Of a stretch of DNA of 13,456 bases, positions 1 through 13,159 are shown piece by piece. This stretch comes from Gulosibacter massiliensis. GTDB taxonomy: Bacteria; Actinomycetota; Actinomycetes; Actinomycetales; Microbacteriaceae. The notes beneath the pieces are model-generated. The model ran no database searches. It worked only from the letters and a program-made list of their open reading frames with translations, and had not been told where the DNA came from. The position numbers and the translations under genes are program-made. The stretch is from assembly GCA_945901035.1 (NCBI GenBank), contig CAMDKN010000015.1, forward strand, positions 1 to 13,456. The letters are read 5' to 3'. Each line of letters opens with the position of its first letter. Positions within the stretch are counted from its first letter, which is position 1.

Positions 1-507
1 GACCCGTCCGTCCCCGTATCGCGCGATGTTCCGTTCGGCCCACGCCGCCGCGAGGGGGAAAAGTTCGATGGCGTAGACCTCGGCGCTGGGCACCTCGGTT
101 GCCAGTGCTAGTGCGAGCGCGCCGGTTCCTGTCCCCAGATCGACGGCCCGCGGGGTCGCCGACGGGACCTGTCGTAGTGCTTCGATCGCCCATTCGGCGA
201 CGAGTTCCGTTTCGGGTCGGGGCACAAGCACCCCGGGTCCAACCTCAAGCACGAGGTGGCGAAACGGCGATTCACCGGTGATGTGCTGCAGCGGCTCGCG
301 CGCCTGACGGCGAAGCGCCAACTGTTCGATGCGCGCGACCACGTCGGCGTCGAGTTCCGCACCCATGAAGGCATTCGTGGCGACCTCACCGCGAGTCCAG
401 CCGGTCACGTGGCCGACGAGCAATTCGGCGTCCGCCAGAGCGGACTCGATTCCCGCTCGACCAAAACGATCCGCCAGATCACTCACCAGCGTGCCGACGG
501 TGGTCAC
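1..507 (-). CDS. prmC: PrmC (HemK), release factor glutamine methyltransferase, C-terminus cut by window edge
   Basis: This frame gives the first 169 residues of the enzyme that uses S-adenosylmethionine to methylate the glutamine of the GGQ motif in release factors 1 and 2. Visible family signatures are the N-terminal helical domain ending in REPLQHITG (residues 70-78), then [15 protein letters not shown] (89-103), and the SAM-binding motif [16 protein letters not shown] (122-136). The NPPY substrate-binding motif lies beyond the left edge, so the catalytic end cannot be checked. The start is a GTG that overlaps the prfA stop (GTGA, 4-base overlap), which implies translational coupling; the nearest Shine-Dalgarno-like GGAG lies rather far upstream. 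Its substrate, PrfA, is the gene immediately upstream, the usual arrangement in bacteria. The frame is open throughout. Confidence 0.95.
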
Positions 508-1589
508 GAGCCGGTGGACTCCGACAGGGCCTTCAGTCGGGCTTCTTCGTCGACGGTGATGCACGATTCGATGATGGGCTCGAGCGCGCCGTTCATCACC
601 TGGTCGAGGTTGTACGACTTGTAACCGGTCCGGTGATCGGCGATTCGATTTTCGGGGAAGTTGTAGGTGCGAATTCGCTCGGAACGGTCCATCCCGCGGA
701 TCTGGCTCTTGCGCGCGTCGCTCGCGACGGCGTCACGCTCTTCCTGCTGGCGCGCGAGAAGCCGGGCACGCAGAACGCGCATCGCCGACTCCTTGTTCTG
801 AATCTGGCTCTTCTCGTTCTGACAGGACACGACGATGCCGGTGGGAACGTGCGTGATGCGAACCGCCGAGTCGGTCGTGTTGACCGACTGTCCGCCCGGA
901 CCACCCGAGCGGAAGACGTCAATCCGAAGGTCGTTGGGGCTGATTTCGACTTCGTCGGGCTCGTCCACTTCGGGAAAAACCAGAACACCCGTCGTCGAGG
1001 TGTGAATTCGTCCTTGCGCCTCGGTCGCCGGGACGCGTTGCACTCGGTGGACACCACCTTCGTACTTCAACCGGGCCCATGCTCCGTTGGCGGGGTCGGA
1101 TGCGTTGGCCTTGATGGCGACTTGAACGTCCTTAAAGCCACCGAGATCGCTGTCGGTTTTGTCGAGGATTTCGACGCGCCAGCCTCGGCTGTCCGCATAC
1201 TGCGTGTACATCCGCAACAGGTCAGCGGCGAACAGGAAACTTTCGGCCCCGCCCTCGCCGCCCTTGATCTCCATGATGACGTCGCGACCGTCGTCGGGAT
1301 CCCGCGGAATGAGCAGTCGTCGCAGTTTTTCCTCGAGTTCGGTGACGCTCGCATCCATCGCGGGGATTTCCTGCGCGAACACCTCGTCGTCTTTCGCGAG
1401 TTCTTTCGCCGCGGCCAAGTCCTCTCGAGCCGCGCTCAAAGCCTCGTGCGTCGTGACGATCTGGTTCAGTTCGGAATAACGTCGATTGAGTTTCTTGGCG
1501 CGCGCCGGATCGGCGTGAATCGCCGAATCGGCAAGGTCCACCTGTAATTGCGCGTGTTCCGCAATCAGCCCATCAATCGATTCGAGCAC
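504..1589 (-). CDS. prfA: Peptide chain release factor 1 (RF1)
   Basis: RF1 recognises UAA and UAG in the ribosomal A site and triggers hydrolysis of the peptidyl-tRNA ester. The protein is 361 residues, normal for the family. The codon-reading PxT motif is present as P187-A188-T189, which identifies RF1 and not RF2. The catalytic loop [10 protein letters not shown] has GGQ at 232-234, and Q234 is the residue methylated by PrmC, encoded next door. The N-terminal coiled region (about 1-95) and the C-terminal basic part look complete. The start is GTG, preceded by AAGGG overlapping the TAA stop of the upstream rho-like gene, with only 8 bases between the two genes. It is therefore probably translated from the same mRNA as hom-thrC-thrB-rho. 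No rpmE (ribosomal protein L31) lies between rho and prfA, although that is common in actinobacteria. Confidence 0.98.
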
Positions 1590-1597
1590 GGTCGCCC

Positions 1598-2842
1598 TTA
1601 GAGCGTGACGACGGCGGTCGCGACGTCGAGAAGCTCGTCACGAACGACACCGGCGAATCCGGCGGTCTGATTGTCAACAGTCGCGATGACGGTCAGCGAC
1701 CCACCCGTTTCGAGGGCGCGACCCGCACCGAAAAGGCGCTTGGCGGCCGAAAAGACGGCGGAATCGACGTTTCCGTCACCGAGCGGTCGTGATCCCTGGA
1801 TCACGGCGAGTTGGTTTTTGGCGACACGGGTCATCGAGTCGATAAGCACGACCACGTGGTGGCCTTTTTCGACGAGGCGCTTGGCCCGCGCGATGGCGAG
1901 GTCCGCGACCGTGACGTGTTCGTCGGCGTGACGGTCGTACGAGGACGCACTGACCTCGCCGCGAACGCCGCGGGTCAAGGCGGTGACGTCTTCGGGGAGG
2001 CCTTCGGCCACGACCACCATGAGGTGCGCGTCCGTCGCGCTCGCCGAAATCTCGGCGGCGAGGTCGCGAATGACGGACGTTCGCGTGGCTCCGGCGGCGG
2101 CATCGACGAGGACGCGGTCACCCTTCTTCACGCCGGCAAAACGACCCGTCAATCCGAGTGCGTCGTGTGCGTGGACCGCAATGAGGTCGGTGAAGTCGTC
2201 ACGCGTGACCGCTTCTTCCGGTGCGGCGCCATTGACGAAATCAATCGTCGCGAGCGCGTTGTACTTCTGGCGGTTCTGGAAGTCGTTGTCTCGCGGTTGA
2301 CGAATCGCGCCCACAATGGCGTCACCTTTGCGAAGGTTGTACTTCTTGACCTGTCCCAAAGCCACGTACACGTCGGCGGGGCTGGCGAGGTAGCCGGCGG
2401 TTCGGACGAACGCGTAGTTGTCGAGAATGTCGAGGATTCCGGCGACCGGGATGAGAACGTCGTCGTCGCTGACACCGTCAAAGTCGTCGTCACGACCGCG
2501 ACCGCGCTTGCGGTTGCGCTGGCGATTGCGGCCATTGTCGGTCTGGGCGTCGTCCGCTTCCGGCGAGTCCGTTTGTTCGCCAGCGTCGCCGTCCGTCGAG
2601 GAAGCGGCGGTTGCGCGGCCACGACCGCGGCCCCGGGTTCGGCGACCTGCAGGAGCGTCCCCGTCAGCGGACGGATCGGCAGTCTCGACGGGAGTGTCCG
2701 ATGATTCCGAGGTCGTGGGTTCTCCGACGATGACCTCGACAGGGGCATCGGCGGACTTTTTCGTCGCGCGACGCGGTGCACGCGCGCGGACAGGCGCCTC
2801 GGTGGTGCTGTCGACAGACGTGTCTGTTGGTTCGTTTTCCAT
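1598..2842 (-). CDS. rho: Degenerate Rho: transcription terminator homologue with ruined ATPase site and missing C-terminus
   Basis: True Rho is a hexameric RNA-dependent ATPase that ends transcription. Residues 1-125 are a low-complexity tail with RG-rich basic patches ([11 protein letters not shown] at 66-76, [13 protein letters not shown] at 105-117), as in actinobacterial Rho. Residues 130-185 are a well-conserved primary RNA-binding domain ([35 protein letters not shown]). The ATPase core is recognisable: [24 protein letters not shown] with Walker B D335, [21 protein letters not shown]. However, the Walker A region reads [10 protein letters not shown] (247-256) where Rho has PPKAGKT. The segment IDERPEEVT has become AEGLPEDVT (279-287), the Q- and R-loops are altered, and the protein stops at L414, before the DRKIAERR segment and the arginine finger. 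About 70 C-terminal residues are absent. The ATG has a strong AAGGAG 6 nt upstream. The frame is intact, so a conserved non-motor role is possible (inference); slow decay is the alternative. Confidence 0.85.
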
Positions 2843-2848
2843 GCGTTA

Positions 2849-2854
2849 CTCCTT
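2849..2854 (-). promoter_or_regulatory. Ribosome binding site of the rho-like gene
   Basis: AAGGAG (CTCCTT on the + strand) lies 6 nt before the ATG at 2842. It is among the strongest Shine-Dalgarno sites in the window and argues that the degenerate Rho is still translated well. Confidence 0.75.
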
Positions 2855-2929: not shown

Positions 2930-3877
2930 TTAGAGACCGTCTCCATCGGGCAGTACCTCTACCGTAGCACCCTTGAAGTCCACCGCCAGCATGAGGCACT
3001 CCCACGAGGTTTCCGTCGACTTCTCCACAATGGCAGCAGCGCGCTCGCGCTCGACCGGGTCATCGGTCAAAACCAGCACCGAGGGGCCCGCTCCGGAGAC
3101 GACCGCCGCGAACCCTTCGTCTCGGAGACGTCGAATGAGCGCGCTCGTTTCCGGCATGGCCTCGGCGCGATAGTCCTGATGAAGTTTGTCCTCGGTAGCC
3201 GCGTGAAGCAACTCGGGACTTTGAATCAACGCAGCGATGAGCAACGCCGAACGCGACACGTTGAACACCGCGTCTTCGTGCGGAACGGTGTCCGGCTGGA
3301 GGCTTCGCGCCGCTGTCGTGCTCATCGTGAGGTCCCTCGGGACAGCCACGAGCAGCGAGACTCCGCGGTGAACCGTGAGCTTCTTGTGCTGTGGGCCCTC
3401 GGGCGTCACCCACGCAATTGAGAGTCCTCCGAACAGCGCGGGAGCAACGTTGTCGGGGTGTCCCTCGAGTTTCGTCGCAAGGGTGAGGAGACCGTCGGTG
3501 TCGATCTCGACAATGCCGGCCAACAAGCCTTTGGCGATCATGATTCCCGCCACAATGGCCGCTCCGGAGGAACCCATCCCACGACCGTGCGGGATCGCGT
3601 TGTGACACACCAATTCGACCGACGGAGCCTCGATTCCGTAAGCGCTGAACGTCGACACGATCGCCTGAATCACCAGATTCGACTCGTCCGTCGCGACGGA
3701 ACCCTCGCCCACTCCGTGGATGGTCGCGTGGGACGAGGGGCCGTCGATCACGGTCGCCGTGATGTCGTCGTACAACGACAGCGCGAGCCCCAAGGTGTCA
3801 AAGCCTGGTCCGAGGTTTGCCGATGTTGCCGGAACCTTGACGGTTACCGACCGGCCGACGGGGACACGACCCGACAC
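2930..3877 (-). CDS. thrB: Homoserine kinase
   Basis: ThrB is a GHMP-family kinase that uses ATP to phosphorylate L-homoserine, the substrate of threonine synthase. The 315-residue protein has the three family motifs in order: N-terminal VPATSANLGPGFDTLG (15-30), the phosphate-binding glycine loop PHGRGMGSSGAA (96-107), and the C-terminal SGAGPSVLVLTDD (261-273). Length and motif spacing are normal and no key residue appears lost. The start is a GTG sharing one base with the TAG stop of thrC (TAGTG), with only a weak GGGG upstream, so translation is probably coupled to thrC. An 87-bp gap separates its TAA stop from the rho-like gene. Confidence 0.97.
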   Translation of the reverse strand: MSGRVPVGRSVTVKVPATSANLGPGFDTLGLALSLYDDITATVIDGPSSHATIHGVGEGSVATDESNLVIQAIVSTFSAYGIEAPSVELVCHNAIPHGRGMGSSGAAIVAGIMIAKGLLAGIVEIDTDGLLTLATKLEGHPDNVAPALFGGLSIAWVTPEGPQHKKLTVHRGVSLLVAVPRDLTMSTTAARSLQPDTVPHEDAVFNVSRSALLIAALIQSPELLHAATEDKLHQDYRAEAMPETSALIRRLRDEGFAAVVSGAGPSVLVLTDDPVERERAAAIVEKSTETSWECLMLAVDFKGATVEVLPDGDGL

Positions 3878-4956
3878 TAGTGCCCCGCAACCAAACCCAG
3901 CACGCTGGCGATCTCTGCGACATCAACGGGAACGATCTGGGGCATTGCCTCTGTCCCGTCGGCGCGCTTCAGCCCCCACTGCGGATCCTTTAGACCGTGA
4001 CCCGTCACCGTGACGACACACACGGCGTCTTTGGGGATGGCACCCGCCTCGGCACGCTCCAACAAACCAGCGACGGAGGCGGCGGAGGCTGGCTCGACGA
4101 AGATTCCGACCTCGGCGGACAGGATTCGCTGTGCGAGCAGAATGTCGGCGTCGCTAATGGCTCCGAAGTACCCGTCCGAATCGTCGCGCGCAGCGATAGC
4201 CAAGTCCCACGAGGCGGGATTGCCGATGCGGATCGCCGTGGCGAGCGTTTCGGGATTCTTGACCGGTTTGCCCTCGACGAGCGGCGCTGAACCGGCCGCC
4301 TGGAACCCGAACATTCGGGGCAGGACGTCCGTCACGCCTCGGGCGATTTCTTCGCGGTAGCCGCGGTGGTAGGCGGTATAGTTTCCTGCGTTCCCGACGG
4401 GTATGAAGTGGAAGTCGGGGGCTCGTTCGAGCACCTCGACGATCTCGTACGACGCCGTCTTCTGGCCCTCGATTCGGTCATTGTTGACCGAGTTGACGAG
4501 GTGGACCGGGTAATTGGCGGCTAGGTCGCGGGCGATGTCGAGACAGTCATCGAAGTTCCCCTGCAACTGCAGGATTTCGGCGTCGTGGGCGACGGCCTGG
4601 CTCAGCTTGCCCATCGAGATTTTGCCCTCCGGCACGAGCACCGCCGCGGTGATTCCCGCGTGCGTCGCATAGGCCGCTGCGGACGCGGACGTGTTTCCGG
4701 TCGAGGCGCAGATGACCGCCTTGGCCCCTGCCTCCACTGCCTTCGAAATCGCCATCGTCATTCCGCGATCTTTGAACGAACCCGTCGGGTTCATTCCCTC
4801 GTACTTGACGTAGACCTTGGCGCCGGTTCGCTCGGACAACGTGCGAGCATAGATAAGAGGCGTGCCACCCTCGCCCAGCGTGATGATGGGCGTTGCATCG
4901 GTGACATCCAGTCGGTCACGATATTCGTGCAACAGGCCGCGCCATTGATGCGACAT
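3877..4956 (-). CDS. thrC: Threonine synthase
   Basis: ThrC is a pyridoxal-phosphate enzyme that converts O-phospho-L-homoserine to L-threonine and phosphate. The 359-residue protein is the compact actinobacterial/Gram-positive type. The PLP lysine is K62 in GMNPTGSFKDRGM (54-66). Other cofactor-pocket segments are STGNTSASAAAYA (85-97), the glycine-rich phosphate-binding loop VGNAGN (187-192), and TGHGLKDP near the C-terminus (318-325). The start ATG overlaps the hom stop by one base (TAATG) and follows a GAAGGG ribosome binding site, which fits efficient re-initiation. The stop overlaps the thrB start. Together with hom and thrB it completes the threonine branch of the aspartate family. Confidence 0.97.
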   Translation of the reverse strand: MSHQWRGLLHEYRDRLDVTDATPIITLGEGGTPLIYARTLSERTGAKVYVKYEGMNPTGSFKDRGMTMAISKAVEAGAKAVICASTGNTSASAAAYATHAGITAAVLVPEGKISMGKLSQAVAHDAEILQLQGNFDDCLDIARDLAANYPVHLVNSVNNDRIEGQKTASYEIVEVLERAPDFHFIPVGNAGNYTAYHRGYREEIARGVTDVLPRMFGFQAAGSAPLVEGKPVKNPETLATAIRIGNPASWDLAIAARDDSDGYFGAISDADILLAQRILSAEVGIFVEPASAASVAGLLERAEAGAIPKDAVCVVTVTGHGLKDPQWGLKRADGTEAMPQIVPVDVAEIASVLGLVAGH

Positions 4957-6269
4957 TAGAGCCCTTCCACTCGCAACACACTCACGACTCGTTCGACAAC
5001 CGGCGACGCCGCGAGGGCGGTCACGGTCGCAGCGAGATCGGCTTCGGTCGCCTCGTGAGTTCCGACTACCAGCGTAGCGGTGGGTGCCTCGCCGTTCGTT
5101 CCCAGAACCTTTTGCTCGACCGATTCGACCGACACTCCGTGGGCGGCGAATGATGCGGCGATGTCCGCGAGGACGCCCGACGCATCGGTGACCTCGAGTG
5201 AGATGTGGTACCGCGTTCGAATTTCGGAAATCGGAAGGATCGGAAAAGTGGCGTGGGTGCTTTCGGCGAGTCCCGGCCCGCCGACGACGTGACGTCGCGC
5301 CGCTGACACGAGGTCACCGAGAACGGCGGAGGACGTTTCGAGTCCGCCGGCGCCAGCCCCGTAAAACATGAGCGAACCCGCCGCTTCCGCCTGGACGAAA
5401 ACCGCGTTGTTCGCTCCGTGAACGGCGGCCAGAGGGTGGTCCAGTGGGACCATCGCCGGGTACACGCGCGCGCTGACGCCTTCGACCCCGTTCGCTCCGA
5501 CAACGCGTTCGCAAATTGCGAGCAGTTTGACGACATACCCGGCTTTGCGGGCGGCCTGAATCTGTTCACGGGTGACCGACGTGATGCCTTCGCGGTACAC
5601 GCTGTCGACGGGGACGTGCGTGTGGAAGGCGAGCGACGCGAGAATCGACACCTTCTGGGCGGCATCGAATCCTTCCACGTCGGCGGTCGGATCCGATTCG
5701 GCGTAGCCGAGTTGTTGGGCCGTCGCAAGCGAGTCCTCCATCGACTCCCCCATGGTGTCGATTCGGTCGAGGATGAAGTTGGTCGTCCCATTGACGATTC
5801 CGAGGATCCGCGTGACGCGGTCCCCCGCGAGAGATTCGCGCAGAGGACGAATGATGGGAATCGCACCGCCGACGGCGGCTTCGTAATAGACCTGAGCGCC
5901 GACCTGCGCGGCCGCGGCAAAAATTTCCGGCCCGTGATGAGCGAGGAGTGCCTTGTTCGCCGTGACGATGTCCGCCCCCGCATTGATCGCCGCGAGCACC
6001 AGCGTCCGAGCGGGCTCGATACCGCCCATAAGTTCAACCACAATGTCGGCTTTGCGCACGAGTTTCTCAGCGTCGGTGGTGAGAAGGTTTGCTGGAATCA
6101 CCGCGTCACGCTTGCCTTTGAGGTCGCGTACGGCAACCCCCACCAGTTCGATTCCCGCACCGATCCGAGCGGCGAGCTCGTCTCCGTGGTTCAGAATCTG
6201 ATCCGCGACCTGCGCACCGACACTCCCCGCGCCGAGGAGCGCGATTCGCAGGTTCCGATATTCGATCAC
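4956..6269 (-). CDS. hom: Homoserine dehydrogenase with C-terminal ACT domain
   Basis: This enzyme reduces L-aspartate-4-semialdehyde to L-homoserine with NAD(P)H, the branch point to threonine and methionine. The 437-residue protein has an N-terminal Rossmann fold (IALLGAGSVGAQVA, 9-22), VTANKALLA (102-110), the catalytic core with YYEAAVGGAIPIIRPL (128-143), GIVNGTTNFIL (157-167) and the catalytic-lysine segment DAAQKVS (202-208). A C-terminal ACT domain starts at about residue 354 (YHISLEVTDASGVLADIA), so feedback inhibition by threonine is likely, as known for actinobacterial Hom. It is a stand-alone enzyme, with no fused aspartate kinase. The start is GTG, preceded by GGAAGGA with 7-nt spacing. 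It is the first gene of the hom-thrC-thrB run. A perfect 12-bp palindrome lies in its leader. Confidence 0.97.
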   Translation of the reverse strand: MIEYRNLRIALLGAGSVGAQVADQILNHGDELAARIGAGIELVGVAVRDLKGKRDAVIPANLLTTDAEKLVRKADIVVELMGGIEPARTLVLAAINAGADIVTANKALLAHHGPEIFAAAAQVGAQVYYEAAVGGAIPIIRPLRESLAGDRVTRILGIVNGTTNFILDRIDTMGESMEDSLATAQQLGYAESDPTADVEGFDAAQKVSILASLAFHTHVPVDSVYREGITSVTREQIQAARKAGYVVKLLAICERVVGANGVEGVSARVYPAMVPLDHPLAAVHGANNAVFVQAEAAGSLMFYGAGAGGLETSSAVLGDLVSAARRHVVGGPGLAESTHATFPILPISEIRTRYHISLEVTDASGVLADIAASFAAHGVSVESVEQKVLGTNGEAPTATLVVGTHEATEADLAATVTALAASPVVERVVSVLRVEGL

Positions 6270-6343: not shown

Positions 6344-6790
6344 CTAGTTTCTCGATTCTTGGGTGAGGAGCAGGCTGTCTTCGGCGGCGACCCACGCCAA
6401 CATGGCGCACTTGACTCGGGCAACGAACTTGGACACACCGGACAGGGCGGCGAGGTCGCCGAATTCTTCTTCGGGCAACACGATTGTTCCGCGCGAGCGC
6501 ATCGCTTCACGGAATCCGTTCGCGAAGCGTTCGAAGTCTGCAACCGACATCCCCGTCGCTTCGGAGGTCATGAGCGACGCCGAAGCTTGCGAAATCGAAC
6601 AGCCGGAGCCCTCCCACTCGAAGGCGGTGATGGTTTCGCCGTCGTCGCTGAGCCGGACCGTGAGCGTGATTTCATCCCCACAGGTCGGGTTGTACTGGTG
6701 CGAGGGGAAGCCGCCCTCGTTCAGTCCGTACCCGGCGCGTTTCTTGTTGTGGTCAAGAATGATTTGTTGGTACAGATCGTCGAGTTGCAT
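6344..6790 (-). CDS. sufU: SufU, zinc-dependent sulfurtransferase partner of SufS
   Basis: In Gram-positive SUF systems, SufU accepts persulfide sulfur from the cysteine desulfurase SufS and passes it on for iron-sulfur cluster assembly. The 148-residue protein has the zinc-ligand set typical of SufU: C37 and D39 in NPTCGDE, C64 in GSGCSIS, and C128 in RVKCAMLAW. The insertion between the second and third cysteines that distinguishes SufU from IscU scaffolds is present (about 95-120). The start ATG overlaps the sufS stop by one base (TGATG) and follows a GGGGAG site 5 nt away, so it is coupled to sufS. It is the last gene of argS-sufS-sufU; a 74-bp gap then leads to hom. No sufB, sufC or sufD is in the window. 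Confidence 0.95.
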   Translation of the reverse strand: MQLDDLYQQIILDHNKKRAGYGLNEGGFPSHQYNPTCGDEITLTVRLSDDGETITAFEWEGSGCSISQASASLMTSEATGMSVADFERFANGFREAMRSRGTIVLPEEEFGDLAALSGVSKFVARVKCAMLAWVAAEDSLLLTQESRN

Positions 6791-8058
6791 CAGGACTCCC
6801 CAAAGTAGCGGCGAACATCGGCGAGAGCCGCGACGGCGATTGCAACATCGTCCACCGTCGAATACATTCCGAGCGAGAACCGCGTCGACGAATCAACGCC
6901 GAGGCGTTTGTGGAGCGGCTGGGCACAGTGGTGTCCGACGCGCGCCGCAATTCCGCGGGAATCAAGGTACTGACCCACGTCGTGCGGGTGAACGCCGTCG
7001 ATCGCGAAGCTGACCAGTCCGACGCGGTGGACGCCTGTGTCGGTTCCAAGAATCGTGACGTGAGGGATGTCGGCGACCGCCGCATACATCTCGGCACCGA
7101 GCGACTCTTCGTGTGCTGCGATTGCGTCGACCCCGACAGTGTCAAGGTACGACACCGTGTGGGCCCACCCGATCGCCTGAGTCAGGCGAGGTGTGCCCGG
7201 TTCGAACTTGGCCGGCGCGGGAAGGTAGTCCGAGGAGTCGTACTCGACGCGGGTGATCATCGAGCCGCCGGTCAGAACAACCGGCATTTCGGCGAGCGCG
7301 TCAGCGGTTCCCCAGAGCGCACCGATTCCGGTCGGTCCGTACATCTTGTGTGCCGAGAACGCGACGAAGTCGGCCCCGTAGGACTCGACGTCGAGTCGGC
7401 CGTGTGCGGCGGACTGACAGGCGTCCACGACAACGCGTGTCCCGGCGGCTCGTGCTCGGTCGGCAATTTCCCGCGTGGGGTTTGTGATGCCGAGGACGTT
7501 GGACACGGATGAGAAGGCCACGATGCGGGTGCGTTCGCTGAGGACCGATTCGACGGCGTGCACGGTCAGTTCGCCGCCGTCCGTCACCGGGGCGACACGG
7601 ATTACGGCGCCGGTTTGCCGAGCGACCTCCTGCCAGGGGACGAGATTCGCGTGGTGTTCGGATTCGGTGACAACGATCTCGTCGCCCTCGCGCAGAGCGA
7701 ATCGCGCGGGCGAACCAACCGCCGACGCCAGTCGAACGGCGAGCGCGACGAGGTTGATCGATTCCGTCGCGTTCGACGTGAAAACCATCTGGTTGGGCCG
7801 CGATCCGACAAAGCCGGCAATCGTCGCCCGCGCATCGTCATATGCTTCGGTCGCCTCGGCCGCGAGCGTGTGTGCCCCTCGATTCACCGCAGCGGTGTGA
7901 CGGAGGGCGAATTCGGATTCGACATCGACAGCCCCGCGCGGGCGAAGGCTCGTGGCCGCGGTGTCGAGGTATACCAGCGGATGCCCGTTGACGGTTTCCG
8001 ACAGCTCGGGGAATTCCGCGCGGATTGCGGCGCTCTGTTCGGCGGTGAACTGGCTCAC
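6790..8058 (-). CDS. sufS: SufS-type cysteine desulfurase
   Basis: SufS is a PLP enzyme of aminotransferase class V that removes sulfur from L-cysteine, yielding alanine and an enzyme-bound persulfide. The 422-residue protein shows YLDTAATSLRP (30-40), TESEHHANLVPW (131-142), DACQSAAHG (212-220), the PLP lysine K238 in SAHKMYGPTGIG, and the persulfide cysteine C378 in ARVGHHCAQP (372-381). This is the SufS group II form. The frame stays open far upstream, but that part is antisense to argS codons. I choose the GTG at 8058, which overlaps the argS stop (GTGA, 4 bases), has GGAG 5 nt upstream and gives a family-typical N-terminus. Its partner sufU follows with a one-base overlap. Confidence 0.95.
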   Translation of the reverse strand: MSQFTAEQSAAIRAEFPELSETVNGHPLVYLDTAATSLRPRGAVDVESEFALRHTAAVNRGAHTLAAEATEAYDDARATIAGFVGSRPNQMVFTSNATESINLVALAVRLASAVGSPARFALREGDEIVVTESEHHANLVPWQEVARQTGAVIRVAPVTDGGELTVHAVESVLSERTRIVAFSSVSNVLGITNPTREIADRARAAGTRVVVDACQSAAHGRLDVESYGADFVAFSAHKMYGPTGIGALWGTADALAEMPVVLTGGSMITRVEYDSSDYLPAPAKFEPGTPRLTQAIGWAHTVSYLDTVGVDAIAAHEESLGAEMYAAVADIPHVTILGTDTGVHRVGLVSFAIDGVHPHDVGQYLDSRGIAARVGHHCAQPLHKRLGVDSSTRFSLGMYSTVDDVAIAVAALADVRRYFGES

Positions 8059-9771: not shown

Positions 9772-10620
9772 TTAGCCGATGGCGTAGGGAACGAAGAAAA
9801 TGGAATCGGAAAGCCACGTCTCGCGTGTGACCGAATCACGCAGCACGTTTCCCCAACTAACTCTGCGGGACGTGAACGAGAGAACTCCGAGGCGCGAGAC
9901 CAACGGTTTTTTCCAGCCCATAAGCCAAGCCGTGTCCCGCGCATCGAAGCGTGCGTCGACAATGCCACCGCGTAAACCGCGAATTTGGCGCTCGACGGTG
10001 GTTTCCGCAGTCGCAAGCGAGTATTCGCCATCAGAGCCAATCACGAGCACACGTCCGTCACTCCGGCCAGACAGTCCGACAATCGGCCACGAAAACGTTC
10101 CATCGAGTAACGACGGAAACAAGTATTCGCCTGAGGACAGTGAAAAGACCTCCAGATGGCTGTCCGAGCTACCGCGCTCCTCAGCCGAAATTATGATTCC
10201 TTCACTGACAAAGATTGAACGGCAGGCATCTCGAGTGGAGGGCAATTCGAAGAGCATCACGGGGTCAATCGACGGCGTCCGAGGGTTCCACGTCATCACG
10301 GTGCATCGATCGTCGTCCTCTTGCAACAGACCGCGGGCGAGGATGTACACCAGGCCGGTGTCGGGCGAATAGTCGGCGCTCGTAATGGACGTCAGTCCCC
10401 AATCATCGCTGACTGCGGTGACTCGCCCGTTGCGGCCCACCGTTCCGACTCGGACGGTCTGATCGTCGATGTCGGCAACTTTGAATTCGATGGTGTACAT
10501 CGTGCCATTCCCGAAGGAGTAGGGACGAGGTTTGGCGTGCGCCTCGGTCACCGCGATGGACGAGAACAGAACCCCGAGTCCCGCTGCTGACGCCAACAGG
10601 GTTGACAGTGATTTCTTCAT
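9772..10620 (-). CDS. Secreted protein of unknown function, paralogue of the upstream neighbour
   Basis: I do not recognise a named family. The 282-residue product starts with a clear Sec signal peptide: MKK, a hydrophobic stretch (about 8-23), and a predicted cut after AHA at residue 29. The mature part is beta-rich, with blade-like phrases such as GRNGRVTAV (62-70) and SADYSPDTGLVYILA (81-95), which resemble beta-propeller blades (inference). It has exactly two cysteines, C106 and C133, which could form a disulfide outside the cell. No lipobox, membrane anchor or catalytic motif is visible. The start is the ATG at 10620 with AAAGGA 5 nt upstream; an in-frame ATG 7 codons earlier would spoil the signal peptide. 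It is clearly homologous along its length to the gene 67 bp upstream, implying tandem duplication. Confidence 0.85.
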   Translation of the reverse strand: MKKSLSTLLASAAGLGVLFSSIAVTEAHAKPRPYSFGNGTMYTIEFKVADIDDQTVRVGTVGRNGRVTAVSDDWGLTSITSADYSPDTGLVYILARGLLQEDDDRCTVMTWNPRTPSIDPVMLFELPSTRDACRSIFVSEGIIISAEERGSSDSHLEVFSLSSGEYLFPSLLDGTFSWPIVGLSGRSDGRVLVIGSDGEYSLATAETTVERQIRGLRGGIVDARFDARDTAWLMGWKKPLVSRLGVLSFTSRRVSWGNVLRDSVTRETWLSDSIFFVPYAIG

Positions 10621-10625
10621 GACGT

Positions 10626-10631
10626 TCCTTT
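10626..10631 (-). promoter_or_regulatory. Ribosome binding site that fixes the start of the downstream secreted paralogue
   Basis: AAAGGA lies 5 nt before the ATG at 10620. This site, and the signal peptide that follows, favour 10620 over the in-frame ATG at 10641. Confidence 0.65.
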
Positions 10632-10687
10632 CGGTCTGCATGTTAACTTAGCGGGGTGGCGCACAAACTAAATGGCTTTGGTTCCGG

Positions 10688-11542
10688 TTAGAAGACGGAC
10701 GGTATGAAGACGATGGCATCCGTCGGCCACATGTTTCGAGTGCCCGCTTCACGGAGCGTCTTTCCCCACTTGGCCTTGCTGCGGACGATATTCATTTTCC
10801 CCATCTTCACCCCGTTGCGACCCCGATTGATGAGCCAGGGGGTGTCGTTGCTGTCGAATTTGACGGAGTGGATCATCGGGTTCCGCACCTTGATGCGGCC
10901 GGACATTATGGCGCCTTCCATGCCCCCCCACAACGTGAAATGACCCGTGCCACGCATTGTGAGAAAGCCTTGAACAGTGTCGTCCATGGCCGAGTACAGA
11001 TCATTCAGCCCGTCGTCGAAGCCGCTGTCTTGCACGCTGAATTCGCCGCTCACAGCGTCGAAGCTATTGACCACACCGATGTCTAGCACCGCGTCACCGC
11101 TCGAAACCGCGACTTCACCATAAGCATCGTTGACCGCGAGGGATTCGCAACCCGCAATGGAAAACGACGGGCGCGAGAGTGTCGCAATTTGTGTCAACGA
11201 TCCAACGGCATCATCGGGGTCGAAGGACCACAACTCACAACTGGTCGACCACCCCTCCGCGAGGACATACACGAGTCCCGTCTCGACCGAATAGTCGGCG
11301 TCCGTTACCTGGTTGAGGTTCAGGTCGGCGCTCAACGGGGTCACGCGCCCATTCCGCTCGATCCGACCCCAGCGAGCCGTGTCACTGGATTCAGGGTCGT
11401 CCGGCGACGAGTATTCCAACGTGTACATCACACCGCCACTCGGGAGGTAACGAATCGGTTTGGCAACTGCGGACGTGAACGAGGACGCGATTAGGGTCAC
11501 CGACAACGAGGTTACCGTGACGATTTTCACCGAGAGGTTCAT
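10688..11542 (-). CDS. Secreted protein of unknown function, first of a tandem paralogous pair
   Basis: The function is unknown. The 284-residue product has a Sec signal peptide (hydrophobic core about 7-22, predicted cut after AVA at 27) and a soluble beta-rich mature part. It shares with the downstream paralogue the start of the mature chain (AKP, then GxxMYTxE), RNGRVT (63-68), DADYSVETGLVYVLA (81-95), a W-G-x-x-L-R segment (259-264) and the ending W-x-x-D-x-I-x-F-x-P (272-281). C102 and C132 match the cysteine pair of the paralogue. The start is the ATG at 11542, with AAGGAG 6 nt upstream. The frame is open for 52 codons further, but that stretch runs through the tRNA-Arg gene and is rejected. 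A promoter-like pair precedes it, so it may head a two-gene unit. Confidence 0.85.
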   Translation of the reverse strand: MNLSVKIVTVTSLSVTLIASSFTSAVAKPIRYLPSGGVMYTLEYSSPDDPESSDTARWGRIERNGRVTPLSADLNLNQVTDADYSVETGLVYVLAEGWSTSCELWSFDPDDAVGSLTQIATLSRPSFSIAGCESLAVNDAYGEVAVSSGDAVLDIGVVNSFDAVSGEFSVQDSGFDDGLNDLYSAMDDTVQGFLTMRGTGHFTLWGGMEGAIMSGRIKVRNPMIHSVKFDSNDTPWLINRGRNGVKMGKMNIVRSKAKWGKTLREAGTRNMWPTDAIVFIPSVF

Positions 11543-11548
11543 GATCTG

Positions 11549-11554
11549 CTCCTT
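11549..11554 (-). promoter_or_regulatory. Ribosome binding site of the first secreted paralogue
   Basis: AAGGAG with 6-nt spacing to the ATG at 11542. It settles the start against the longer open frame that reads into the tRNA gene. Confidence 0.75.
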
Positions 11555-11568
11555 CTGAGGACCAGACC

Positions 11569-11597
11569 AGAATAGACAGCGAAACAGTTTTTGGCTA
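11569..11597 (-). promoter_or_regulatory. Probable promoter of the secreted paralogue pair
   Basis: On the minus strand TAGCCA (11597-11592) and TATTCT (11574-11569) are exactly 17 nt apart, matching sigma-70 consensus at 4/6 in each box. The start point would be near 11562, giving a leader of about 20 nt that contains the AAGGAG site. The same -10 hexamer occurs in the ramB promoter. Confidence 0.5.
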
Positions 11598-11636
11598 CCT
11601 CTTTCGAGAGCAACCACGACTTCCCAGGACCCGACG

Positions 11637-11712
11637 TGGTACCCCCTACAGGATTCGAACCTGCGACCTTCTACGCCGGAGGTAGACGCTCTATCCACTG
11701 AGCTAAAGGGGC
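11637..11712 (-). tRNA. tRNA-Arg, anticodon CCG, with encoded CCA end
   Basis: The minus strand folds into a standard cloverleaf. The acceptor strand is GCCCCTT, paired with AGGGGGT (one G-U pair at the end and one inside). The D-arm is GCTC...GAGC with loop AGTGGATA. The anticodon arm is TCTAC-CTCCGGC-GTAGA, giving anticodon CCG, which reads the arginine codon CGG. The T-arm is GCAGG-TTCGAAT-CCTGT. The discriminator is A, followed by a genomically encoded CCA. It begins 16 nt after the ramB stop on the same strand. Just downstream, CGTGGT can pair with ACCACG at the 3' end of the gene; there is no U-tract, so I do not call a terminator. Confidence 0.97.
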
Positions 11713-11728: not shown

Positions 11729-13159
11729 CTACCGCGGCGAGTGACGCTCGAGAAATTCAAAGACGGCCCGATCGTCAACCCCGGGGAACGTGCCGTGATG
11801 AACGGGGGTCAACACGTGCGAGTGCATCGCCGCGCTCGTCCAGGTGTTGCCGGACCATCGCGCCGCGAGTCGGGCACTGGGCAGGACACAACAGTTCGGG
11901 TCGGGACAGGTCGAAACCTTCCGGTCGCCGGTGTCGCGACCACGGAACCACTTGGATTCAGTGAACGCAACCCCGACCGTGATCGAGAAGTTGCCGTCGA
12001 CACCCGAGCCGGTTTGGGTGGATTCCCAGAAGGTTCCCTCGGGAGTGTCGGTGTACTGATAGTACTCGGTCGTCCGACTGACGCGTTCGAGGGCGACGCG
12101 CGCACTCCAGTTCCGACACAGTCGCTGCCCCTCGACGCTGCCCGTGACGTCGGTGGGAATAGGCAGTCCGTCGTTTTCGTAAGCCTTGTAGACGGCTCCC
12201 TCGTTTCCGACGCGCAGAAAGTGGACGGGGATGTCCAGGTGACTGGTGGCGAGGTTCGTAAATCGCATGGACGCGACTTCGTGTGTCACGCCAAAGGCGT
12301 CCCGAAAATCTTCGACGGCGATGTTCCGGTCGGACTTGGCTTTGGACAAAAACTCGACCGCTTGTCGGCGCGGCATGATCGCGGCCGCGGCGACATAGTT
12401 GATCTCGAGGCGTTGCCTCAGAAAATCCGAGTAACTGGACGGAATGTCGTGTTCCAGAATTCGATGCGCGATCGCCTGAATCGCCATCGATCGCAGCCCG
12501 TGTCCACCCGGAATCGAGGCGGGGGGAAGATACACATGTCCGTTAGCCCAGTCGGTGATGCTGCGCGCGGATTCCGGTAGATCGTCGACATAGATAATGT
12601 CGAGCCCGAATCGCTCCGCCATCTGGCTCATCTCGCGGTGGGTGAGTGCGCCGGTGGTGTGCCCGACCTGGTCGGACAGGTCTTGACCGATTTCTTCGAG
12701 GTCGGGTCGATAGTTGTTAATGTCCCGCATGATCTGACGCAGTTCGGTGTTCGCGCGGCGTGCCTCCTCCGGCGTCGCAATCGCCGTCGTTTCTCGGCGC
12801 ACGAGTTCTCGGTGCAGTCCCAGCAGCGCATCGAGGGTGTCGTCACTGACCGTCTTGCCAATACGCGCTCGGGGTATTCCCAGTCGGGTCGCGAGTGGCG
12901 ACCGTTGAAGTTCGTCGAGTTCGAGCTCTTTCGCACTTCGTTCGTCGGGCGCTCCGGGTTCCAACAACGTGTTGAGGCTGACCCCCAACGCTTCGGCGAT
13001 CGACGTGATGAGCCCGATTTTGGGCTCGCGCTTTCCGTTTTCGATGATCGACAGTTGACTGCCCGATAATCCGACCTTTTCGCTCAAGGCGTCCAGCGTC
13101 AGATTGGCGCGGTTACGGTAGTGGCGAATTCGCCTTCCCATCGTTTGTGCGTTTCCCAT
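11729..13159 (-). CDS. ramB: RamB/PrpR-type (short-chain fatty acid) transcriptional regulator
   Basis: This is a 476-residue regulator of the family that includes C. glutamicum RamB and M. tuberculosis PrpR, which control acetate, propionate and glyoxylate genes. Residues 8-62 are an XRE helix-turn-helix (IRHYRNRANLTLDALSEKVG, then SGSQLSIIENGKREP). Residues about 160-300 resemble the ImmA/IrrE fold, but its zinc-protease HExxH is degenerate (IAHRILEHD, 230-238). The C-terminal DUF2083 region (about 300-470) carries C348 in RLCRNW and C418, C423, C424 in STCPDPNCCVLPSARLAARW. PrpR is reported to bind an Fe-S cluster with C-terminal cysteines, so the same is plausible here (inference). The ATG is 6 nt after a TATTCT box and lacks a Shine-Dalgarno, which suggests a leaderless mRNA. 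It diverges from pckG, a likely target. An in-frame ATG at 13141 is the alternative start. Confidence 0.88.
   Translation of the reverse strand: MGNAQTMGRRIRHYRNRANLTLDALSEKVGLSGSQLSIIENGKREPKIGLITSIAEALGVSLNTLLEPGAPDERSAKELELDELQRSPLATRLGIPRARIGKTVSDDTLDALLGLHRELVRRETTAIATPEEARRANTELRQIMRDINNYRPDLEEIGQDLSDQVGHTTGALTHREMSQMAERFGLDIIYVDDLPESARSITDWANGHVYLPPASIPGGHGLRSMAIQAIAHRILEHDIPSSYSDFLRQRLEINYVAAAAIMPRRQAVEFLSKAKSDRNIAVEDFRDAFGVTHEVASMRFTNLATSHLDIPVHFLRVGNEGAVYKAYENDGLPIPTDVTGSVEGQRLCRNWSARVALERVSRTTEYYQYTDTPEGTFWESTQTGSGVDGNFSITVGVAFTESKWFRGRDTGDRKVSTCPDPNCCVLPSARLAARWSGNTWTSAAMHSHVLTPVHHGTFPGVDDRAVFEFLERHSPR

Follow-up and report, generated by a model that had tools for sequence, protein, structure and literature searches.

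Rho is treated as a motor, and its ATPase as its function (PMC5379054). According to that report, E. coli Rho carrying D265N or R366A shows reduced hydrolysis and unaffected RNA binding; M. tuberculosis Rho mutants at the positions equivalent to E211, R366 and D265 are expressed and fail to sustain growth, and depletion of Rho kills M. tuberculosis (PMC5379054). The catalytic residues are described as highly conserved in divergent Rho factors (PMC8828861). Within the primary site, Y80 of Rho touches nucleic acid, and the Y80C substitution abolishes tight binding: for (dC)34, the Kd goes from 10 nM to more than 3000 nM (PMC1950744). Among the papers listed by searches of the open-access literature, none describes a Rho with a dead motor for the bacteria considered here. 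Surveys of rho distribution have been published in subscription papers.

Here we describe pseudo-Rho, which a freshwater bacterium encodes in the usual place of rho. Within the window (the whole 13,456-nucleotide stretch of DNA that was analysed), its gene occupies 2842..1598 on the minus strand, a strand that the original prediction had left unstated, and encodes 414 amino acids with 0 internal stops. NCBIfam matches give the surrounding gene order as hom-thrC-thrB-rho-prfA, all on the minus strand: thrC and hom at 3877..6269, thrB as the upstream neighbour at 2930..3877, and prfA as the downstream neighbour at 504..1589, with 8 bases between the pseudo-Rho stop and prfA. The order thrB-rho-prfA is usual in actinobacteria. 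A ribosome binding site, AAGGAG (2849..2854, minus), lies six bases before the ATG, in agreement with the original prediction of an intact frame behind a strong site. Further along the window, also on the minus strand, a SufS-type cysteine desulfurase and a NifU_N (SufU-like) protein are encoded between argS and hom (6344-8025), two open frames (9772-10641, 289 aa; 10688-11698, 336 aa) have no NCBIfam or Pfam match, and a 476-aa HTH regulator (11729-13159) has RamB and IrrE-like matches below cut-off.

The original prediction had placed a gene with a Rho-like RNA-binding domain at 1598..2842, between thrB and prfA, and this holds: the Rho_RNA_bind domain (PF07497) is matched at 85 bits (cut-off 27), and an ATP-synt_ab-type domain is also present. 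The protein scores 231 bits against the Rho equivalog model TIGR00767 and so falls short of its cut-off of 509. Over the matched part, it is 46-53% identical to 13 intact Microbacteriaceae Rho proteins. From the orthologous locus and the Rho domain architecture, we conclude that pseudo-Rho is Rho by descent.

To read the motor residues, we aligned the protein with Rho of E. coli and of family members whose motor is intact, using E. coli numbering. The Walker A remnant AAAGATRT (residues 248-255; 2078..2101, minus) has Arg in place of K184, with Thr-Arg at 253-254, and the catalytic-Glu stretch has become AEGLPEDVT (from residue 279; 1982..2008, minus), with Gly at E211 and Leu at R212. Asp265 is kept in the Walker B strand VVVLIDS (1835..1855, minus). 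Both the Q-loop, now QGSRPLGDG (from residue 349; 1772..1798, minus), and the R-loop, now NQTAGFAG (from residue 391; 1649..1672, minus), are changed, the latter with Phe at K326, and the secondary RNA site is therefore absent in its Rho form. All four of these altered motifs had been read correctly in the original prediction. It had also counted about ten residues missing before Walker A; a gap does exist there, of ~14 residues relative to E. coli Rho and ~11 relative to actinobacterial Rho, but the loss is larger than was supposed, as everything after about residue 345 is gone as well. The gap covers E. coli residues 154-164, and because alpha-6 of Rho spans residues 153-166 (PMC5449661), most of this helix is gone. 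The RecA-like domain (1601..2128, minus) ends at its last core strand, and in the genus members aligned nothing remains past about E. coli residue 345, Arg366 included.

To extend this reading, we compared 91 proteins of the type found in the window's genus (P0001-P0091), three of which are incomplete (P0088, P0090 and P0091, the last with an apparent frameshift). All 91 have Arg at 184 and Gly at 211, lack R212, and have no residue at 366, confirming that the ATPase has lost essential residues; Gly183 is lost in 90 of the 91, an acidic residue (Glu or Asp) stands at 210 throughout, and D265 is kept in 90. This agreement at 184, 211 and 366 rules out an assembly fault as the source of the motor loss. 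By its sequence, then, pseudo-Rho lacks three features of the Rho motor: the Walker A Lys184, the catalytic Glu211 and the Arg366 finger.

The RNA-binding part has fared differently. L58, F64, R66, D78, Y80 and Y110 are present in 91/91 genus-type proteins; like Y80, introduced above, the other five are primary RNA-site residues of Rho. They lie in the OB-fold domain (residues 128-209; 2216..2461, minus), which is preceded by a probably disordered N-terminal region (residues 1-119; 2486..2842, minus; pLDDT <50 nearly throughout) containing a 13-residue Arg-rich block (2492..2530, minus). Such a block stands directly before the OB fold in the motor-dead and intact forms examined, although the protein of one genus (g49) is truncated N-terminally, so that no more than RRRR of the block can be seen. 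The AlphaFold model of the window protein is mediocre as a whole (pLDDT 65.5, pTM 0.47), with a mostly confident RecA-like core. In a fold search, the 50 listed PDB matches were all Rho chains, at an rmsd of 12-14 because the domain orientation is unsure, and the best PDB sequence matches listed (the first 14 of 33) were Rho as well. For a motor-dead protein of a second genus (g6), modelled without its N-terminal region, a two-domain model was obtained with pLDDT 77.9 and pTM 0.77. Since the RecA part is still mostly a confident fold in these single-chain models, a scaffold or oligomer role for it is plausible.

Pseudo-Rho is the only Rho found in its genome. Searching with the window's protein (P0001), at E values up to 1e-3, gave one match in each of 15 genomes of the genus, and no second Rho, intact or otherwise, was found in any of them. 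Five of these genomes are at least 94% complete, among them MWH-Ta3 (G010; 99%, 2 contigs); the assembly from which the window comes reaches 80% completeness, and apart from pseudo-Rho it contains no more than weak TIGR00767 matches, none better than E 2e-10. These results contradict the suggestion that the protein is a dominant partner of a second Rho.

We then asked how selection acts on the gene, using Nei-Gojobori dN/dS over the 78 pairs of 13 genus genes (G003 and G008 being set aside as partial). In window-protein numbering, residues 128-209 gave a dN/dS of 0.017 and residues 239-398 one of 0.073; 68/82 and 100/160 residues, respectively, were invariant over the 13 genes; by E. coli columns, it was 0.028 for the OB fold (51-119) and 0.074 for the RecA-like part (171-340). 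These values are not near 1, and none of the 15 genus matches contains an internal stop, ruling out a decaying pseudogene for the window's genus, one of the outcomes that the original prediction had named as refuting it. Corresponding OB/RecA values for three intact control genera were 0.133/0.044 (g85, 5 genes), 0.054/0.024 (g57, 7 genes) and 0/0 (g98, 6 genes), and for two other motor-dead groups 0.093/0.254 (Leucobacter, 6 genes) and 0.084/0.267 (g6, 5 genes), from no more than 6 and 5 usable pairs, respectively, out of 10. Single-genome lineages (g16, g19, g49) fell outside this analysis. Thus, constraint is tighter on RecA than on the OB fold in 2/3 intact genera (the third has no change in either) and looser in 3/3 dead groups, a comparison weakened by the higher median dS of the dead groups (0.67-1.85, vs 0.20-0.38 in the controls). 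Outside the window's genus, dN/dS fits a new role or slow decay alike.

The original prediction was made from a single case; motor loss is in fact recurrent. TIGR00767 is matched above cut-off in 343 of 398 Microbacteriaceae genomes, and the low scorers group by genus. A rho match below 1e-30 is present in 391/398; the 7 without one are all assemblies of at least 270 contigs, and no genome with a lower contig count is without a rho-type gene. The gene therefore seems to be retained despite loss of the motor. Of the rho loci of 30 genomes, we aligned 28 (L066 and L076 being left out). Walker A is broken in the window's genus (g1), in g6 (5/5), in Leucobacter (g15; 6 of the 8 genomes aligned, of nine) and in two lineages of one genome each, Tropheryma whipplei (g16) and g49, the last of which keeps E211. 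In the single g19 genome, GKT survives within a loop that has been shortened, but E211 is gone, as is the C-terminal part. The affected lineages are thus the window's genus, Leucobacter, T. whipplei and three further genera. We assigned g15 and g16 from proteins 100% identical to those of L. tenebrionis (P0122, matching the G354 protein) and T. whipplei (P0242). Position 184 is occupied by Ala, Val, Ile or Gly in other dead lineages. The finger is not lost everywhere: several dead Leucobacter, like T. whipplei, still have an Arg at or near 366. In g13 (E211 to A), g52, g73, g94, g21 and g17, the changes are milder.

Leucobacter and its relatives (L062, L064, P0122-P0241) form a graded series: some proteins are intact, some are dead, and the intermediates carry D265 to E or are short of a single motor residue. 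Of the 120 proteins closest to L. tenebrionis Rho, which come from other genera as well, 73 lack both Walker A and E211, 38 have all four motor features scored and 9 are intermediate. Three other proteins (P0095, P0101 and P0111, the last perhaps incomplete) keep Walker A and E211 with no Arg near 366 and are possible intermediates. The sole strong Rho match of T. whipplei (L071), a bacterium with a reduced genome, has K184 to R and E211 to I, and keeps L58, F64, R66, D78 and Y80. Streamlining as the sole cause is ruled out by the six dead Leucobacter genomes, which measure 2.7-3.4 Mb.

To ask whether these losses share one origin, we mapped them onto an RpoB tree of 30 genomes that we chose ourselves and that are enriched for low scorers (G280 has a partial RpoB, and T. 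whipplei a long branch). The fewest changes required were 5 for loss of K184, 6 for E211, 7 for either and 4 for both, reading the changes, as we do, as losses and not regains; g19, which keeps GKT, was coded as dead, and each residue was also counted alone. Holding the 12 dead genomes as one clade was rejected (p-AU 1.1e-6), by a test that assumes a group named before the tree, which is true here only in part. These data indicate that the motor has been disabled several times in Microbacteriaceae, and related bacteria seem to have broken it independently.

Among 196 class-level genomes, 189 exceed the TIGR00767 cut-off; the seven below it comprise two truncated or fragmented cases, the window's genome and four of a second actinobacterial family (f41). 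In the six f41 genomes read, Walker A is broken in 5 (L249-L253; G519, G579, G446, G570 and G538; 3.5-4.5 Mb), with K184 to R in 3 and to A in 2, the latter 2 also without E211; the sixth (G462, L248) keeps GKT. Low TIGR00767 scores in G099, G081, G482 and G431 were read as contig-end truncation or fragmented assembly instead of motor loss.

What has largely been kept across the dead lineages is the RNA site. Scored over columns invariant in 13 intact Rho proteins (13/15 loci from outside the genus; L029 and L033 were set aside as divergent), retention in the OB fold is 0.86 in the window's genus, 0.88 in g6, 0.95 in Leucobacter, 0.65 in T. whipplei, 1.00 in g19 and 0.92 in g49; in the same six lineages it is 0.46-0.65 in the RecA part and 0.02-0.43 in the C-terminal part. 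L58, F64, R66, D78 and Y80, together with D265, are kept in 6/6. Y110 is not kept throughout, being His in T. whipplei and Gly in part of g6, and T. whipplei, whose OB fold is the weakest of the set, has Cys at the F62 position. The RNA-binding domain was still recognisable each time the motor was lost.

Abandonment of Rho-dependent termination might predict more intrinsic terminators. We scanned 400 kb of each of six genomes with our own gene caller, scoring U-tract hairpins of -12 kcal/mol or lower against shuffles. At convergent ends, the excess was 0.052 (n=82), 0.020 (112) and 0.177 (86) in dead genomes and -0.004 (118), 0.120 (96) and 0.065 (100) in genomes that keep the motor; at widely spaced tandem ends, it was 0.185 (65), 0.006 (79) and 0.165 (59), and 0.101 (69), 0.157 (59) and 0.012 (85), respectively. 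In this weak test of three dead against three kept genomes, there was no consistent excess, and a test of C>G bubbles, also weak, 3' of genes gave no consistent difference between dead and intact.

Taken together, the loss of the motor residues, the single Rho per genome, purifying selection and recurrent loss with the RNA site kept lead us to favour, at a probability of about 0.62, a pseudo-ATPase RNA-binding protein in a lineage that has abandoned translocation-driven Rho termination. Because the ATP binding and hydrolysis of a Rho ring would be missing, such a protein would neither translocate RNA nor terminate by pulling, and Rho termination of the known kind would therefore be absent. The Arg-rich block and OB fold would continue to grip single-stranded RNA; the RecA-like part may persist as a folded scaffold that perhaps supports oligomers. 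As a guess, the motor-independent role retained could be shielding of nascent RNA, an RNA chaperone or an RNA condensate. The original prediction had offered an RNA-binding factor and abandoned Rho-dependent termination as separate options; they are compatible, and both remain as candidates. The recurrent, apparently independent loss suggests a useful activity of Rho that does not need the motor. More tentatively, the RNA-binding function of the Arg-rich block and OB fold may be the indispensable part, and translocation the dispensable one, lost at least 5 times in one family, in which case these proteins would make up a recurring class of RNA-binding Rho proteins with a pseudo-ATPase. Some observations sit awkwardly with the favoured account: the weak terminator and C>G tests gave no sign of compensation, the retention of D265 in six dead lineages is odd if nucleotide is irrelevant, and the T. 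whipplei OB score, with His at 110 there and Gly at 110 in at least one g6 protein, speaks against an untouched RNA site.

Other explanations must be weighed against these data. Pseudo-Rho could be a motor-free terminator, which binds both RNA polymerase and its nascent transcript and stops transcription by trapping the enzyme in an ATP-independent way. NusG is present in 14/15 genus genomes (missing from G002, 65% complete), but has other roles; M. tuberculosis Rho was once claimed to terminate apart from motor action, a claim that the same source reports as contradicted (PMC4499133), and the failure of M. tuberculosis ATPase mutants in vivo (PMC5379054), the changed Q- and R-loops and the loss of the C-terminal part and of most of alpha-6, beside the connector, make this unlikely. 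We are similarly doubtful of slow decay, in which Rho is dispensable, its motor is eroding and the RNA domain is slower to go. The graded forms of Leucobacter, g52, g13, g73 and g94 would suit it, as would the RecA dN/dS of 0.25-0.27 in dead Leucobacter and g6 and a TAG inside the matched stretch of one Leucobacter locus (L070, G132); it is harder to square with the window's genus, where the RecA-like part is as constrained as described above, with a recognisable OB fold behind its Arg-rich block in 6/6 dead lineages, and with a gene in every family genome of fewer than 270 contigs.

The invariant Arg at 184, the acidic residue at 210 and the near-universal D265 might instead describe a weak but real motor, with Arg standing in for the Walker A Lys. 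Against this, E211, R212 and 366 are lost in 91/91 and Gly183 in 90/91, and other dead lineages have Ala, Val, Ile or Gly at 184; we consider such a motor very improbable. Least probable of all is an intact Rho or functional replacement hidden elsewhere in the genome: the incompleteness of the window's own assembly leaves room for one, yet each genus genome yields a single match, the nearly complete G010 included. These matches speak against a Rho homologue, and less against an unrelated replacement factor.

If the favoured account is true, these bacteria provide a natural separation of function, with the motor lost several times and the RNA grip kept, in which one can test directly what Rho does without translocation and how a cell with a high-GC genome manages when no Rho motor drives termination. 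Suitable strains include MWH-Ta3, whose record is not labelled as a MAG and which is presumably a cultured strain, and many named Leucobacter, a genus with intact, intermediate and dead forms.

Compared with Rho itself (TIGR00767; M. tuberculosis Rho, 7oqh, and E. coli Rho), pseudo-Rho has the same locus, domain order, OB-fold primary site and RecA-like fold, and differs in being without the Walker A Lys, catalytic Glu, Arg valve, Arg finger, R-loop Lys, C-terminal part and most of alpha-6. In the Rho of Bacteroides thetaiotaomicron, a charged disordered region can drive RNA-dependent condensation, a possible analogue for pseudo-Rho, but that protein is reported to remain an essential termination factor (PMC13269538). 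The motor-dead Rho of Leucobacter (e.g. L. tenebrionis) shows the same type of loss with the RNA site kept, and differs in its separate place on the RpoB tree, its C-terminal region, its longer N-terminal region and its faster RecA evolution. T. whipplei Rho resembles pseudo-Rho in its substitutions at K184 and E211 and in being the one match of that strength, and differs in its Arg at 366, its weaker OB fold and its separate lineage. Finally, the short paralogue Rho2 (NF041509) is likewise a short relative of Rho, to which pseudo-Rho scores 210 bits against a cut-off of 628; Rho2, however, is a paralogue, whereas pseudo-Rho is the sole Rho found in its genome.
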